Positions 6,595 through 19,467 of a DNA stretch of 46,006 nucleotides are shown here, one piece after another. A model generated the notes under the pieces. It saw only the letters and a program-made list of their open reading frames with translations, was not told where the DNA came from and did not search any database. The stretch is taken from positions 1 through 46,006 of the forward strand of contig JH610998.1 of the NCBI GenBank assembly GCA_000252485.1, written 5' to 3'. This DNA is from Prochloron didemni P4-Papua_New_Guinea (GTDB taxonomy: Bacteria > Cyanobacteriota > Cyanobacteriia > Cyanobacteriales > Prochloraceae). A program made the translations under genes and the position numbers. Position 1 is the stretch's first letter, and every line of letters begins with the position of its first letter.

Positions 6595-6888
6595 AAATTA
6601 CAGATATAGCGCTACGGGCAATTCAAAATTCAAAATTCAAAATTCAAAATTAGTGGATAGCGTTTGGTGGGCAGTGCCGCACCCTACAGTGGGACAGGCG
6701 AATTGCCTGTGAGTTCATCGTTCCACTGCATTTCAAGTCCACCCGGTGGCTGCCATAGCCAAAATCTCTGGTTGAGAAAATTAAATTTATATTTTTTTAA
6801 CTTTTGTAACTTTCCATGATATGATTGGTCCTGGAAGGTTTCGAGGGACTTCGGTTCGCCGAAGGACTGAGAGCCGAATTAAACCTGA
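6595..6888. repeat. Repeat-rich intergenic stretch
   Basis: Contains a partial MITE-B (TATAGCGCTACG near 6606, then AATTCAAAATTC runs to 6652), a GGTGGGCAGTGCCGCACCC palindrome near 6667-6685, and a short hairpin CTTCGG-TTCG-CCGAAG near 6850-6865 just before the orphan IscB-type element. The bases just 5' of 6889 would hold the guide if the downstream omega-RNA is transcribed. Confidence 0.6.
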
Positions 6889-7122
6889 GTCAGCACCCCG
6901 CGCTGAAGCAGCTGGGCTTCATGCCCTAAAGCTAAAGCTAGCTGACCAGTCTAAGTTCTCTTTATGGGGACTACGTTTTTCGAGTTATGACACCCACGAA
7001 TGCGTCGCTAGTTCATGGCTCTGTCGCTTGTTGTTAAACAGCTTTACGAGGGGTAAGGCAGTGCAGCAAACCTAACAAGCTCTTAAAACATTGATCTCCG
7101 CGAACTAACCCTAGAAATAGGA
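6889..7122 (+). ncRNA. Orphan IscB-type omega-RNA scaffold
   Basis: Nearly identical to the omega-RNA region in front of iscB at 16522-16752. Both begin GTCAGCACCCCGC, close a stem with GCTGACCAGTCTAAG (GTCAGC 6889-6894 pairs with GCTGAC 6941-6946), and share a long block with almost no changes through the stretch TGCGTCGCTAGTTCATGGCT and the CTTTACGAGGGGTAAGGC hairpin to AATAGGAG at about 7115-7122. Known IscB systems place a guide 5' of the scaffold, so the bases before 6889 would be the guide. No IscB gene follows here. Whether it is transcribed is inference. Confidence 0.7.
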
Positions 7123-7220
7123 GTTTATGGGGGATTTTATTTCCCCCATCCCCTGATGGGGACGGCTGAATTTATTAGCCTCCTCAACTTCATCCGCGAG
7201 TTAAAACTTCGCGGCTTCCG
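6889..7220 (+). mobile_element. Nuclease-less IscB-type element (internal deletion)
   Basis: Compared with the full element at 16522-18069 this copy keeps the left-end omega-RNA and the right end. A hairpin GGCTGAATTTATTAGCC is followed by TCAACTTCATCCGC (7184-7197), which equals 18056-18069 after the iscB stop. The whole iscB coding region is missing and replaced by about 45 bp with an ATGGGGGA/TCCCCCAT hairpin (7127-7149). It therefore behaves like a non-autonomous derivative. It ends within about 20-40 bp of the atp1 start, so it separates the ATP synthase operon from its ancestral upstream sequence. Confidence 0.65.
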
Positions 7221-7237
7221 TTTGCCCAAGAGGTCCC

Positions 7238-7657
7238 GTGAATCCATCTAACCAATCTCTCGAATCCACACTGCCAACCAAAGGATCTTCCAGATTGCCC
7301 ATGGAAGAATATTATCAACTTCAACAAAAATTGTTGTTGATAACTGTCGCCATGAGTGTAGGGATTTTTGCGTTGGTTTGGGGAATTTTATCTCTCAATC
7401 TTGCTTTAAATTATTTGCTTGGCGCTGTGGTGGGTGTGGTTTACTTGAGAATGTTAGCTAAGGATGTAGAGCAAATAGGTGTGGAAAACCAGAGTTCTGG
7501 TTCTGCCAAAAGGTTGGGGCTTTTTGTAGTCTTAATCCTGGCAGCCAGTCAATGGCAACAATTGTATATTTTGCCTGTATTTCTGGGATTCATGACCTTT
7601 AAAGTTACTTTCGTCATCTATACGTTGCTGACTCTAGCTTATGATGGAAAAATCTGA
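7238..7657 (+). CDS. atp1: ATP synthase subunit I (Atp1)
   Basis: A 139-aa membrane protein, first gene of the operon. Cytoplasmic N-terminus to about residue 30, then hydrophobic helices about 31-50, 53-68, 88-105 and 108-132, the four-helix layout of the AtpI/Atp1 family. In other bacteria AtpI helps assemble the c-ring or supplies Mg2+; it is not part of the mature enzyme. The start is GTG 7238, preceded by an AAGAGG site five bases upstream; the next in-frame ATG at 7301 would remove the N-terminal tail. The gene is 59 bp from subunit a. Confidence 0.85.
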
Positions 7658-13821: not shown

Positions 13822-15192
13822 ATGTTTCAAATATCAATGATGCAAAAAATGTTAGAGATTGCAGATGAAATAGTTTTCGCCAAGACAGGTAAACACCTGG
13901 ACGATTTGCAACAGGCGATTATCCGGGGAACTCTTCAAGGCAAACGGTACATTGACATCGCAGCAGAAAACAACTTTGCTGAAAAACACGTCAAAGACGC
14001 TGGGAGAAAATTATGGAAAATCTTGTCAGATATTTTGGAAGAAAACATTAGTAAATCGAATCTCAAGGCTACTTTTGAGAAGATTTACACCTATAACAGT
14101 CCGGATTCGGATGTGATTCAAGCTAATTTTAATAGTAATTATTTTAATAGTATCAACTTCTGTACAACGCCGTATCCTGACGGTATTATTCGTCGCTCCC
14201 AGCATGAACAACAAGTTCAAGCAAGAGAGGATTTAAACGAAGCACCTCGACGAGAAAATATTTACGGACGTATGGATGAATTAGAGGCACTAGAAAAAGA
14301 GATTTTGAAAACAGAATCTCCTCTAGTTACTTTATTGGGTGCGGGCGGGATTGGAAAAACTACCCTTGCAGTTAAGTTAGTAGCTGCAATTAAAAGTAAA
14401 TTTGATTTTATCATTTGGCGCAGTCTCAGCACTTTACCTACCTTAGAAGAAACAATCACAAATATTGTTGATTTTATTTCCCACCCAGAAACTACCGACA
14501 GGAACAACTTGGATTTATTAAAACATTATTTACGCAAGTACCGTTGTTTGATAATAATAGATGACGTGCAAACAATTTTCATGGAGGGAAAACTACCGGG
14601 AACTTACAAAAGCGGATATGAAAACTACGGCTCTTGGTTTAAAAATTTAGGTGAAGTATCTCATCGTAGTTGTTTGTTATTGTTGAGTAGAGAGGAACCA
14701 AGAGAAACGGCTTTATTATCGAATTGCTTTTCTTCAAGATTAAGTGGATTGGGAGTTTGCGCAAGAAAAATACTTAAAGAAAAAGGTTTATCTGGACAAA
14801 AGCAATGGGATAGGTTGATTGAGATTTACAAAGGCAATCCGTTATACTTGAAAATAGTAGCGAAAGCTATAGAAGATTTATTTAGTGGTGAAGTAAATGA
14901 TTTTCTTAACTACTCTCAATCCTTTTTAATTCACGATATCTATCTTATCTTGAAAGAACAGTTGCAACGTCTTTCACCATCCGAAATTAATCTAATCCAA
15001 TTATTAGCGGAGCAAAATAAAACTGTTTCTTTGACGGAACTAAAAAAAGTAAAATCAGTGGATTTAGTCAGAGATGTTGAATCTTTGAAGAGGCGCTCGC
15101 TTCTCGAAACTCAATCTTTGAACGGTGAAATATGGTTTCACTTAGATCCCTTGGTTAAGGAATTTGCAAAAGTCCAAGAAAACGATGTATAA
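13822..15192 (+). CDS. NB-ARC STAND ATPase with N-terminal HTH, no repeat sensor
   Basis: A 456-aa protein. Residues about 8-85 (MLEIADEIVFAKTGKHLDDL, then QQAIIRGTLQGKRYIDIAAE) match the helix-turn-helix-like N-terminus common on cyanobacterial vWA-MoxR-associated and NB-ARC proteins. The ATPase core has Walker A GAGGIGKTT (173-181), an IIWRSLS strand, Walker B CLIIIDDV (242-249), a sensor LLLLSREEPRE and a winged-helix-like C-terminus. Relatives usually continue into WD40 or TPR repeats; this one stops after the winged helix, so the sensor is missing or separate. STAND proteins are signal-dependent switches, often in antiphage defence. ATG 13822; Met7 is an alternative start. Confidence 0.75.
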   Translation: MFQISMMQKMLEIADEIVFAKTGKHLDDLQQAIIRGTLQGKRYIDIAAENNFAEKHVKDAGRKLWKILSDILEENISKSNLKATFEKIYTYNSPDSDVIQANFNSNYFNSINFCTTPYPDGIIRRSQHEQQVQAREDLNEAPRRENIYGRMDELEALEKEILKTESPLVTLLGAGGIGKTTLAVKLVAAIKSKFDFIIWRSLSTLPTLEETITNIVDFISHPETTDRNNLDLLKHYLRKYRCLIIIDDVQTIFMEGKLPGTYKSGYENYGSWFKNLGEVSHRSCLLLLSREEPRETALLSNCFSSRLSGLGVCARKILKEKGLSGQKQWDRLIEIYKGNPLYLKIVAKAIEDLFSGEVNDFLNYSQSFLIHDIYLILKEQLQRLSPSEINLIQLLAEQNKTVSLTELKKVKSVDLVRDVESLKRRSLLETQSLNGEIWFHLDPLVKEFAKVQENDV

Positions 15193-16521: not shown

Positions 16522-16752
16522 GTCAGCACCCCGCTCTGAAGAGGCGGGGCTTCGTGCCTCCCTCCTAGGATAGCTGACCAGTCTAAGTCCATTAGTGGAC
16601 TACGTTTTTTGAGTCACGACACCCACGAATGCGTCGCTAGTTCATGGCTCTGTCGCTTGTTGTTAAACAGCTTTACGAGGGGTAAGGCAGTGCAGCAAGC
16701 CTAACAAGCTCTTAAAACATTGACGAAGCGAACCAACCCTAGCAATAGGAGT
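16522..16752 (+). ncRNA. omega-RNA scaffold of the IscB system
   Basis: In IscB systems the guide RNA is encoded immediately upstream of the nuclease, guide first and scaffold second. Here the conserved block begins GTCAGCACCCCGC (16522). GTCAGC (16522-16527) pairs with GCTGAC (16572-16577) around an inner CCCCGC...GCGGGG hairpin. A highly conserved segment follows, including TGTCGCTTGTTGTTAAACAG and the CTTTACGAGGGGTAAGG hairpin. It runs to the ribosome-binding site of iscB and is almost identical to the orphan copy at 6889. The guide would be roughly the 15-20 bases before 16522. Scaffold limits are approximate. Confidence 0.75.
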
Positions 16753-16761
16753 ATTCACATT

Positions 16762-18045
16762 ATGCGTGTATTTGTACTAGATAAAAACCGAAAACCACTA
16801 GACCCATGTCACCCCGCTAAAGCAAGAAAATTGCTGAAATCAGGAAGGGCTAAAGTGCTTAGAAGATATCCATTTACCATCATCATCAAAGACTTAGAGG
16901 TAGAAAATTGCTCCACTCATGACCACCAACTAAAAATAGACCCAGGTGCTAAGACAACAGGACTTGCAATCGTCCAAGGTGATAGAGTTATTTGGGGGGC
17001 GGAACTAACCCATAGAGGCTTTCAAATTAAGGAAGCTTTGACATCTAGGAGACAGCTTAGGCGCTCTCGTCGTAACCGTAAAACTCGGTATCGTAAGCCT
17101 AGATTTCTTAACAGGACTCGCCCCAAAGGTTGGTTGCCTCCTAGTCTAATGTCGCGGGTTCATAATATTTTGACTTGGGTCAAAAAACTAATTAAATTTT
17201 GTCCAGTAACTGGTATTTCCCAAGAGCTAGTGAGGTTTGATACCCAGAAGATGCTAAATCCTGAAATCTCTGGGATTGAATACCAACAAGGGACTTTATA
17301 TGGCTATGAACTGCGGGAATATCTTTTGGAAAAATGGAATAGAACTTGTGCCTATTGTGGGGCAAATAATACACGATTAGAGATTGAACATATTAAGCCA
17401 AAATCAAAGGGAGGTTCAGATAGAGTCTCTAATCTAGCGATTGCTTGTCATAATTGCAATCAAGCTAAAGGAAATCTTGAAATAGAAGAGTTTCTATCAA
17501 GTAAACCCAATATTCTCAAGCGTATTCTATCTCAAGCCAAAAAACCATTGGCAGATGCAGCAGCAGTCAATGCAACTCGATGGAAGTTGCACGACGAACT
17601 GAAATTAATTGGACTCCCAGTTGAAGTAGGTTCGGGTGGTCTAACTAAATACAATCGTTGCCGCCAAAATCTACCAAAAACCCATTGGCTGGATGCTGCA
17701 AATGTCGGCAAAGTTGAGACTTTATATATTGAAGATTATCAGCCCTTATTGATAACAGCTAAAGGGCATGGAACCAGACAAATTTGTAGAACAGACAAGT
17801 TTGGGTTCCCGAGGCTTCATTGCTCTCCAAAAAAGATTCACAAAGGTTTCCAGACAGGAGATATTGTAAGAGCTGTTGTGACTAAAGGCAAAAAAATCGG
17901 AACTTACATGGGTAGGATAGCAACGAGAAAAACTGGTTCTTTTGATATTACTACTGCAAAAGGCAGGGTTTCAGGAATTAGCTATAAATATTGCCAAGCT
18001 ATCCATCGCAAAGATGGATATAGTTATCAATTTTACGGCGGATAA
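16762..18045 (+). CDS. iscB: IscB RNA-guided HNH/RuvC endonuclease
   Basis: A 427-aa protein from ATG 16762 (AGGAG nine bases upstream), the canonical PLMP-type start MRVFVLDKNRKPLDP; the open frame extends 14 codons further but those lie in the omega-RNA. Domains: PLMP (1-40); RuvC-I KIDPGAKTTGLAIV with Asp60; Arg-rich bridge helix (96-118); RuvC-II SQELVRFD with Glu155; HNH with zinc-type CAYCG (197-201), LEIEHIKPKSKGGS (His210) and CHNCNQAKGN; RuvC-III THWLDAANVG with Asp311; then a C-terminal domain. All catalytic residues are present, so it looks active. IscB is the ancestor-like relative of Cas9 and cuts DNA using the omega-RNA. Confidence 0.93.
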   Translation: MRVFVLDKNRKPLDPCHPAKARKLLKSGRAKVLRRYPFTIIIKDLEVENCSTHDHQLKIDPGAKTTGLAIVQGDRVIWGAELTHRGFQIKEALTSRRQLRRSRRNRKTRYRKPRFLNRTRPKGWLPPSLMSRVHNILTWVKKLIKFCPVTGISQELVRFDTQKMLNPEISGIEYQQGTLYGYELREYLLEKWNRTCAYCGANNTRLEIEHIKPKSKGGSDRVSNLAIACHNCNQAKGNLEIEEFLSSKPNILKRILSQAKKPLADAAAVNATRWKLHDELKLIGLPVEVGSGGLTKYNRCRQNLPKTHWLDAANVGKVETLYIEDYQPLLITAKGHGTRQICRTDKFGFPRLHCSPKKIHKGFQTGDIVRAVVTKGKKIGTYMGRIATRKTGSFDITTAKGRVSGISYKYCQAIHRKDGYSYQFYGG

Positions 18046-18138
18046 ATCCGCCGAGTCAACTTCATCCGCTCCCCCCCTTTGGTCCCCCACACTGGGGGGG
18101 AAACAGGGGGGGCGGTTTCCGTTTTCCCGAGAAATGTC

Positions 18139-19467
18139 ATGATTCGATTTATCGATCTGTTTGCTGGTATAGGGGGCATACGTCTTGGCTTAGAGCAAGC
18201 GTGTCAGGAGTTAGGAATTGATTGCCGCTGTGTATTAAGTTCAGAAATTGATTCTAAGGCTTGTGAAACATATAATTTAAATTTCGGGGAGACTCCCCAA
18301 GGAGATATTACCAAAATCAAGCAAATTCCAGACTTTGAATTTCTCCTAGCCGGATTTCCCTGTCAGCCTTTTTCATACGCTGGGAAACAACAAGGCTTTG
18401 GGGACACTCGTGGAACATTATTCTTTGAAGTCGAGAGAATTATCAAAGAGCATCAGCCAACTGGTTTCTTGCTAGAAAATGTACGAGGTTTAACGAGTCA
18501 CGATGGAGGGAGAACTTTAAAAACAATTCTCCACGCCTTATCTGAATTAGGCTATGGGGTAAGCTATTTACTATTAAATAGCAGCAATTTTGACATTCCT
18601 CAGAATCGTGTCAGAATTTATATTCTTGGCTTAAAAGAGCAGACTCCGCAATTAACCCTACAATCGGATAAGGGAGCTATAGATTCACACGCCTTCAAAA
18701 AAGCAGGAATTCAGGGGGATTTATTTCATAATTTTCTCTCGTTTAAGACAGTAAAAGATATCTTAGAAAAAGAGGTCGATCATCAATATCTTTGCTCGCA
18801 AAAATTTACGCAAATGCTGACCAAAGCGGTAGGAAATAATTTAAACAAATTGCATGGGGTTAGGCTTATTGATTTCAGAGGAGGAAATTCTATTCACTCC
18901 TGGGATTTAGGGATTAAAGGTGAGTGCGATCGAGTGGAAAGAAATTTCATGAATTTACTTATTGCTAATCGAAGAAAAAAAATATTTGGCACACATCAAG
19001 ATGGAAAAAGTCTAACGTTAGAACAAATAAAAACTTTCTACTTTAACCCTGATTTAGTAGAAGTTATTGGCAGTCTTCTCGCCAAGGGATACCTCAAGGA
19101 AGAAAATGGTAAATATGGTCCCGTTTGTGGGAATATGTCATTTGAAGTTTTCAAATTTCTCGATCCTGAAAGCATCTCCATCACACTAACAAGTGCCGAT
19201 GCCCATAGACTTGGGGTTGTGGTAAATAACCAGCCTAGAAGAATAACCCCCAGAGAATGTGCAAGATTGCAAGGATTTCCCAACTGGTATCAACTACATC
19301 CAGATGAATATGCTGCTTATAGACAATTGGGAAATGCTGTTACTGTCCCTGTAATTAAAACAGTCATGTTAGATTATTTAAGTAATAATTTTAGTTTCTT
19401 TTCTAAAGAGACCACAAATTTCGGTACAACCCCTAACCAACCTCTAACAAAGAAAGTATTTAGTTAA
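18139..19467 (+). CDS. DNA (cytosine-5) methyltransferase, orphan
   Basis: A 442-aa protein from ATG 18139, which gives the standard MIRFIDLFAGIGGIRLGLEQ motif I; 20 upstream codons are polypurine/pyrimidine repeat. Further motifs: GFPCQPFSYAG with catalytic Cys75 (motif IV), GFLLENVRGL with Glu113 (motif VI), IPQNRVRIYILG (motif VIII), a target-recognition region about 195-370 that I cannot assign to a sequence, RRITPRECARLQGFPNWY (motif IX) and YRQLGNAVTVPV (motif X). All are intact. No restriction endonuclease is encoded within several kb, so it acts alone or with a distant partner. A decayed duplicate of its tail lies at 15884. Confidence 0.92.
   Translation: MIRFIDLFAGIGGIRLGLEQACQELGIDCRCVLSSEIDSKACETYNLNFGETPQGDITKIKQIPDFEFLLAGFPCQPFSYAGKQQGFGDTRGTLFFEVERIIKEHQPTGFLLENVRGLTSHDGGRTLKTILHALSELGYGVSYLLLNSSNFDIPQNRVRIYILGLKEQTPQLTLQSDKGAIDSHAFKKAGIQGDLFHNFLSFKTVKDILEKEVDHQYLCSQKFTQMLTKAVGNNLNKLHGVRLIDFRGGNSIHSWDLGIKGECDRVERNFMNLLIANRRKKIFGTHQDGKSLTLEQIKTFYFNPDLVEVIGSLLAKGYLKEENGKYGPVCGNMSFEVFKFLDPESISITLTSADAHRLGVVVNNQPRRITPRECARLQGFPNWYQLHPDEYAAYRQLGNAVTVPVIKTVMLDYLSNNFSFFSKETTNFGTTPNQPLTKKVFS

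Follow-up and report, generated by a model that had tools for sequence, protein, structure and literature searches.

The question raised by this locus is how an RNA element of a mobile family comes to stand immediately before atp1, the first gene of the ATP synthase operon, and whether it does anything there. The window analyzed is the whole stretch of 46,006 nucleotides that makes up positions 1-46,006 of the forward strand of Prochloron didemni P4-Papua_New_Guinea contig JH610998.1. A sequence-only reading of it had proposed an orphan omega-RNA element upstream of the operon, and taken as a whole this observation is borne out as far as the element is concerned and has to be corrected as to its placement. 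The features discussed are collected in Table 1.

Table 1. Features of the two HEARO/IscB elements in the window and of their flanking genes
Feature	Position	Strand	Basis or remark
Promoter-like block native to atp (TTAACT 17 bp upstream of extended -10 TGATATGAT)	6797-6825	+	Consensus scan, relatives
Leader native to atp (63 nt), flanking the element on its left	6826-6888	+	Between box and left end
Predicted guide (16 nt), the leader stretch just 5' of scaffold	6873-6888	+	Analogy with IscB omega-RNA
omega-RNA scaffold (HEARO, RF02033)	6889-7109	+	6889 is left end of element; copies start GTCAGCACC here
iscB Shine-Dalgarno/start-region remnant (AATAGGAG)	7116-7156	+	Aligned to iscB-bearing copies
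Palindrome, aligns with hairpin around iscB stop codon of iscB-bearing copies	7164-7180	+	Alignment
Right-end hairpin	7194-7214	+	Alignment with other copies, hairpin scan
Shine-Dalgarno-like AAGAGG in terminal tail (putative function)	7228-7233	+	Sequence, tail alignment
GTGA: insertion target, predicted TAM, atp1 start codon	7238-7241	+	Junctions, relatives' starts
atp1 (ATP synthase protein I), first atp operon gene	7238-7657	+	PF03899, PF24763; relatives
omega-RNA of iscB-bearing element	16522-16737	+	RF02033, 162.9 bits
iscB, possible nuclease source in trans	16762-18045	+	PF14239, HNH families; PDB IscB chains
C5-cytosine methyltransferase gene	18139-19467	+	ATGA start abuts right end of iscB-bearing element

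The scaffold recognized by the earlier reading at 6889 is matched by the covariance model RF02033 (HEARO, omega-RNA) with 134.6 bits against a gathering score of 83 (E 6.4e-28), and the alignment covers model positions 1-211 of 211. The element ends 128 bp past the scaffold, with the right-end hairpin retained as had been claimed and with a terminal tail that alignment shows to be common to other copies. Within 7110-7237 iscB is absent, and so the HNH gene expected downstream of a HEARO RNA is missing at 6889-7237; the RNA is placed in HEARO by its sequence and structure, and a complete iscB-bearing unit is not claimed. Where iscB would be, at 7116-7156, the remnant AATAGGAG is followed by a 9-codon frame over a G/C hairpin. 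Other short copies look alike, with the iscB Shine-Dalgarno sequence and ATG followed by a small frame over a G/C hairpin. As the element keeps the Shine-Dalgarno and start region of iscB, a palindrome aligning with the hairpin that surrounds the iscB stop codon in other copies, its own right-end hairpin, and the tail, it is read here as an internally deleted, non-autonomous element and not as a loose RNA.

That this element has lost iscB is correct in the sense that no iscB is found in it, but it is better described as one among many iscB-less copies. The genome holds 37 HEARO matches, 31 of them above the cut-off. By our reading, 10 of the 31 have iscB alongside (one of these broken) and 18 do not, one shows a start-to-end internal deletion of iscB, and two are ended by contig ends just past the RNA. 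RRXRR matches number 14, with nine in open frames of 412-448 amino acids, two of which (C451 and C213) run to the contig end; a further 10 matches are to Y1_Tnp, none linked to the window element. HEARO copies stand at contig ends in L006, L018, L022, L023, L028, L030, and others, so that these repeats are a probable cause of breaks in the assembly, which makes the copy numbers given lower bounds. In the order, HEARO was found in 129 of 243 genomes at E <= 0.001, under strict filters and with at most nine candidates scored per genome.

The same fragmentation, with the assembly in 690 contigs and several HEARO copies at their ends, could suggest that a repeat copy was misjoined before atp1. The promoter-like block on the left and atp1 on the right are nevertheless colinear with relatives, and the copy carries private differences, its best match to another copy being 87.9%, so an assembly artefact is considered very improbable.

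Two RNA lineages coexist in the genome, and the window copy groups with the iscB-bearing one. Its RNA is 79.7-87.9% identical to nine of the ten RNAs beside iscB and 72.0% identical to the tenth (L017), whereas identity to the iscB-less lineage is 61-70%. Since the RNA is 80-88% identical to nine of the ten RNAs beside iscB, action of IscB in trans is plausible. The proposal of a stand-alone omega-RNA with an IscB available in trans accordingly holds, given nine open-frame iscB genes and an RNA of the iscB-type lineage. The nearby intact iscB that had been pointed out is indeed present about 9.5 kb away, with RRXRR (PF14239) and HNH (PF01844) in one open frame that identifies it as IscB. Its own element (16522-18142) is, as judged from its junctions, a second start-codon insertion in the window: the Pfam match of the methyltransferase begins at residue 2 counted from the ATG at 18139. 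Elsewhere in the window, NB-ARC/NACHT-like NTPase matches lie in the protein encoded at 13822-15192, by the gene just 3' of the ATP synthase gamma gene.

The correction to placement concerns the right junction. The element had been thought to end 20-40 bp before atp1, but there is no gap: by alignment and by the ends of homology the right end is at 7237, abutting the GTGA. Own-genome copies with an intact right end mostly lose homology at or just past RTGA, and in 70 copies from 13 genomes with a resolved junction the right end lies directly 5' of ATGA or GTGA, although the resolution of junctions itself looked for RTGA, so that only the ends of homology are independent evidence for it. We take GTG 7238 as the start of atp1 because GTGA is the start in 41 of 47 relatives' loci, a count favored by a start-calling script that prefers RTGA among in-frame starts. 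These 47 loci combine the best 29 of 58 relatives with a match and 18 from a further search, and some may come from the same or near species.

Upstream, the box TGATATGAT of the promoter-like block lies at 6816-6825, 63 nt from the left end of the element and 412 nt from the present start codon. In 36 of the 47 loci a box RTGNTATGAT, or one near to it, is found no more than 160 nt before atp1, and in 18 of these 36 it stands 53-54 nt before the gene. As a side observation, a conserved block (TATTGTTACC...GTGATATGAT) is found about 53-54 nt before a mostly GTG atp1 start in many genomes of the order (for example L039, L056, and L061-L078), and short tandem copies of AATTCAAA lie at about 6622-6655, upstream of the atp promoter region. 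An element-supplied promoter was considered and rejected, as the block common to relatives stands 5' of the element. Block and leader are kept, with the element lying between the leader and the start codon, and the insertion altered the leader and not the promoter. Of the earlier suggestion that the insertion provides or influences promoter or leader, the part on the leader stands, and the part on promoter supply does not, the promoter-like block having been kept upstream.

None of the 47 relatives' atp1 loci carries a HEARO at the Rfam gathering score (one, L050, has only 318 bases upstream of the match), so the element is not a decayed remnant fixed at the same place in all relatives. In its genus-mate G001 the region is empty and atp1 apparently starts with TTG, while in G002 (same genus, 71% complete) no atp1 match was found; given the TTG start in G001, no very near relative shows the exact empty site. 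The element probably inserted at atp1 within this lineage. The distribution also bears on the idea of a domesticated leader, in which the element would regulate atp, for example through IscB binding or processing the leader RNA. Its position in the leader of an essential operon and the presence of IscB genes would suit such a role. Among the genomes examined, however, the element stands at atp1 in this one only, so that nothing points to selection for a role in the host, and start-codon insertion (see below) is common in the family without a shared pathway; we regard domestication as improbable.

A further rival reading is an inert passenger, an old copy in decay that makes the atp leader longer but has no function as an RNA. 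The scaffold of the window copy differs at one base in the first hairpin and in a segment near the 3' end, and its score ranks 26th of the 31 above-cut-off copies in the genome, both of which would fit decay. So would the leader itself: terminator-like hairpins at 6954-6972 and 7194-7214 (two found against 1.3 expected) could reduce read-through, and predicted openness around the atp1 start falls from 0.63 in the empty to 0.46 in the filled state, with one fold each and an assumed transcript start. Against decay stand the full-length match at 134.6 bits where the cut-off is 83, the high identity to RNAs whose iscB is still in place, and the unbroken ends, and for these reasons an inert passenger is judged rather unlikely.

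We consider it on balance probable that a non-autonomous IscB-family element inserted at the atp1 GTGA in this lineage and that an omega-RNA in the leader, with IscB provided in trans, favors its retention through presumed expression and cleavage. The element is of the IscB family (HEARO, IS200/IS605-like), with the omega-RNA at its left end, a hairpin and tail at its right end, and iscB deleted inside, and it lies directly 5' of the GTGA that is the atp1 start codon. This anatomy and junction are shown by the sequences, as are the promoter-like block kept upstream, the empty sites in relatives, the iscB genes elsewhere in the genome, and the excess of start-codon insertions in the family (see below); the mechanism that follows is inferred. 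Lying between leader and start codon, the insertion would leave the operon translatable. Transcription from the native atp promoter would then produce the omega-RNA as part of the 5' leader of the ATP synthase mRNA, with the native leader as its guide and the start codon as its TAM. For OgeuIscB, a guide some 16-17 nt long at the 5' end is described, together with the need for a TAM (PMC9640706). The predicted guide consists of native leader sequence, and together with the adjoining GTGA it would specify the atp1 allele that lacks the element. The bases before 6889 were searched against the genome for a target, and the 18-mer occurs once; no second genomic target of the guide was found, the two other places at up to three mismatches comparing with four for the reversed control. 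An IscB made in trans could load this omega-RNA and cut atp1 alleles that lack the element, whether these are left by excision or carried on sister chromosomes where the cell is polyploid, and cutting of such element-free alleles would lead repair to copy the element back. Cyanobacteria often have several chromosome copies. Should this leader reading be true, the ATP synthase promoter drives a programmable nuclease guide aimed at the ATP synthase start region. Weighing against this account are the scaffold changes, the terminator-like hairpins, the drop in predicted openness, the TTG start in place of an exact empty site in G001, and the result that none of the 10 Y1 matches could be assigned to the element as its transposase.

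The position had also been called unusual, and on this point the wider family argues otherwise. Flanks of HEARO copies were joined, and a copy was scored at a start when the junction RTG fell in the reading frame of an ORF 80 codons or longer and no more than 75 nt from the first start of that ORF. The first set held 97 copies from 13 genomes (37 own-genome matches and 60 fetched loci). For the 70 resolved junctions, 22 (own genome and G002) and nine others were placed by eye, and 39 by tail patterns that had been written after the homology ends were inspected; a general hairpin rule for right ends agreed at 47 of the 70, missed 14, and differed at nine, and was not used. Classification was possible for 69, the right flank of G000_L002 being too short in the locus, though this copy was otherwise placed at a start, and G000_C163b was removed afterwards because its junction fell inside the RNA match, which left 68 copies.

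In this set, 27 of 68 copies stand at an ORF start, against 66 of 1777 control RTGA sites of the flanks; in the window, the corresponding control gives 22 of 590, its own two junctions included. Outside genes the figures are 27/59 and 66/517 (p = 9.8e-9). By source, starts account for 14 of the 39 pattern-only junctions, 7 of 17 in the own genome, none of three in G002, and six of the nine placed by eye, and the excess varies by genome (0/6 in G074, 0/3 in G002, 4/4 in G234). Of 28 ORFs initially counted as starts, a Pfam check covered 26, leaving out atp1, which was matched separately, and the dropped copy; 21 of the 26 have a match, the exceptions being L131, L137, L159, L173, and L125. Families at start junctions include SufBD, rubredoxin, 3-dehydroquinate synthase (aroB), folD (in Pfam, tetrahydrofolate dehydrogenase/cyclohydrolase), ferredoxin-thioredoxin reductase, the mnmA family, and TatA. 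Housekeeping start codons with a HEARO in other genomes are those of L174, L179, L163, L165, L180, L090 (SufBD), and L199, the genes concerned being aroB, folD, ferredoxin-thioredoxin reductase, mnmA, tatA, and SufBD by Pfam and argininosuccinate synthase by eye.

A second set of 40 fetched loci, of which four had no recognized left end and 17 no recognized right end, gave 19 classified copies; their junctions were assigned from patterns while the sequence downstream was still unseen, except for L187, whose downstream bases were already known as L097. Here 8 of 19 are at an ORF start against 26 of 409 control RTGA sites (p = 2.8e-5); with sites inside genes left out, the counts are 8 of 14 and 26 of 133 (p = 0.004). 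The start genes include argininosuccinate synthase (by eye), and the copies scored as intergenic because the gene is below 80 codons include, by eye, those at SecG and a small membrane protein. Both sets pooled give 35 of 87 at starts. The copies were not drawn at random, being the highest-scoring HEAROs of multi-copy genomes, and several belong to a common subfamily, so that the p-values can serve as a guide only. Within the family as covered here there is an excess of insertions at start codons, and the site at atp1 belongs to a class that is enriched among the family's insertion sites (27/68 and 8/19 against their controls). As to the earlier interpretation, the stand-alone RNA served in trans stands, while promoter supply and an unusual position fall away. 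A Shine-Dalgarno-like right end was also considered as the cause of start insertion; only some subfamilies have such tails, and judged by eye their presence does not distinguish copies at starts from the rest, subfamilies without them being found at starts too, so that the idea is unsupported.

The start-codon bias is the notable point worth following, the element itself being of a known type. The excess suggests a way in which such elements can stay numerous while leaving genes intact, and it offers a testable link of target choice, translation starts, and RNA-guided retention in multi-chromosome bacteria. It could be speculated that cyanobacterial HEARO/IscB elements are start-codon homing elements, for whose trans-acting guides housekeeping operons such as atp serve as both platforms and hostages; this wider proposal is tentative, and we hold it possible and not probable. 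If true, insertion at RTGA on the coding strand would put the omega-RNA in the host 5' leader, so that a host promoter is gained, the gene can still be translated, and careless loss of the element becomes costly.

Stand-alone omega-RNAs are already known, those of IscB systems reportedly from the work of Altae-Tran et al. in 2021, and ATGA or GTGA integration sites are said to have been noted for HEARO by Weinberg et al. in 2009. In the literature searched we recognized no description of start-codon insertion by HEARO/IscB, and an earlier one may exist in print. A study of Limnospira discounts the HEARO RNAs there as remnants of mobility and proposes to look into possible effects of their location on neighboring genes (PMC8400943).

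Comparison with known systems places the window element among them as follows. TnpB is a Cas12-type nuclease whose guide lies at the opposite end of its element. For TnpB of IS200/IS605, RNA-guided retention and gene drive are reported, with a nuclease-driven bias toward element-bearing copies on plasmids (PMC11870625); likeness lies in a guide taken from the insertion flank and, for the window element by analogy, in a nuclease favoring element-bearing DNA, and the difference is that the drive was shown on plasmids and not for the window element. With HEARO RF02033 and the IscB omega-RNA the element shares a full-model match in sequence and structure, a guide 5' of the scaffold, and iscB-bearing copies in the genome, but the window copy is without iscB and lies in the ATP synthase leader at a start codon. 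With stand-alone IscB omega-RNAs it has in common that no nuclease gene is adjacent and that a nuclease could act in trans; unlike them, the window case is a defined short element with both of its ends, placed at a start codon.
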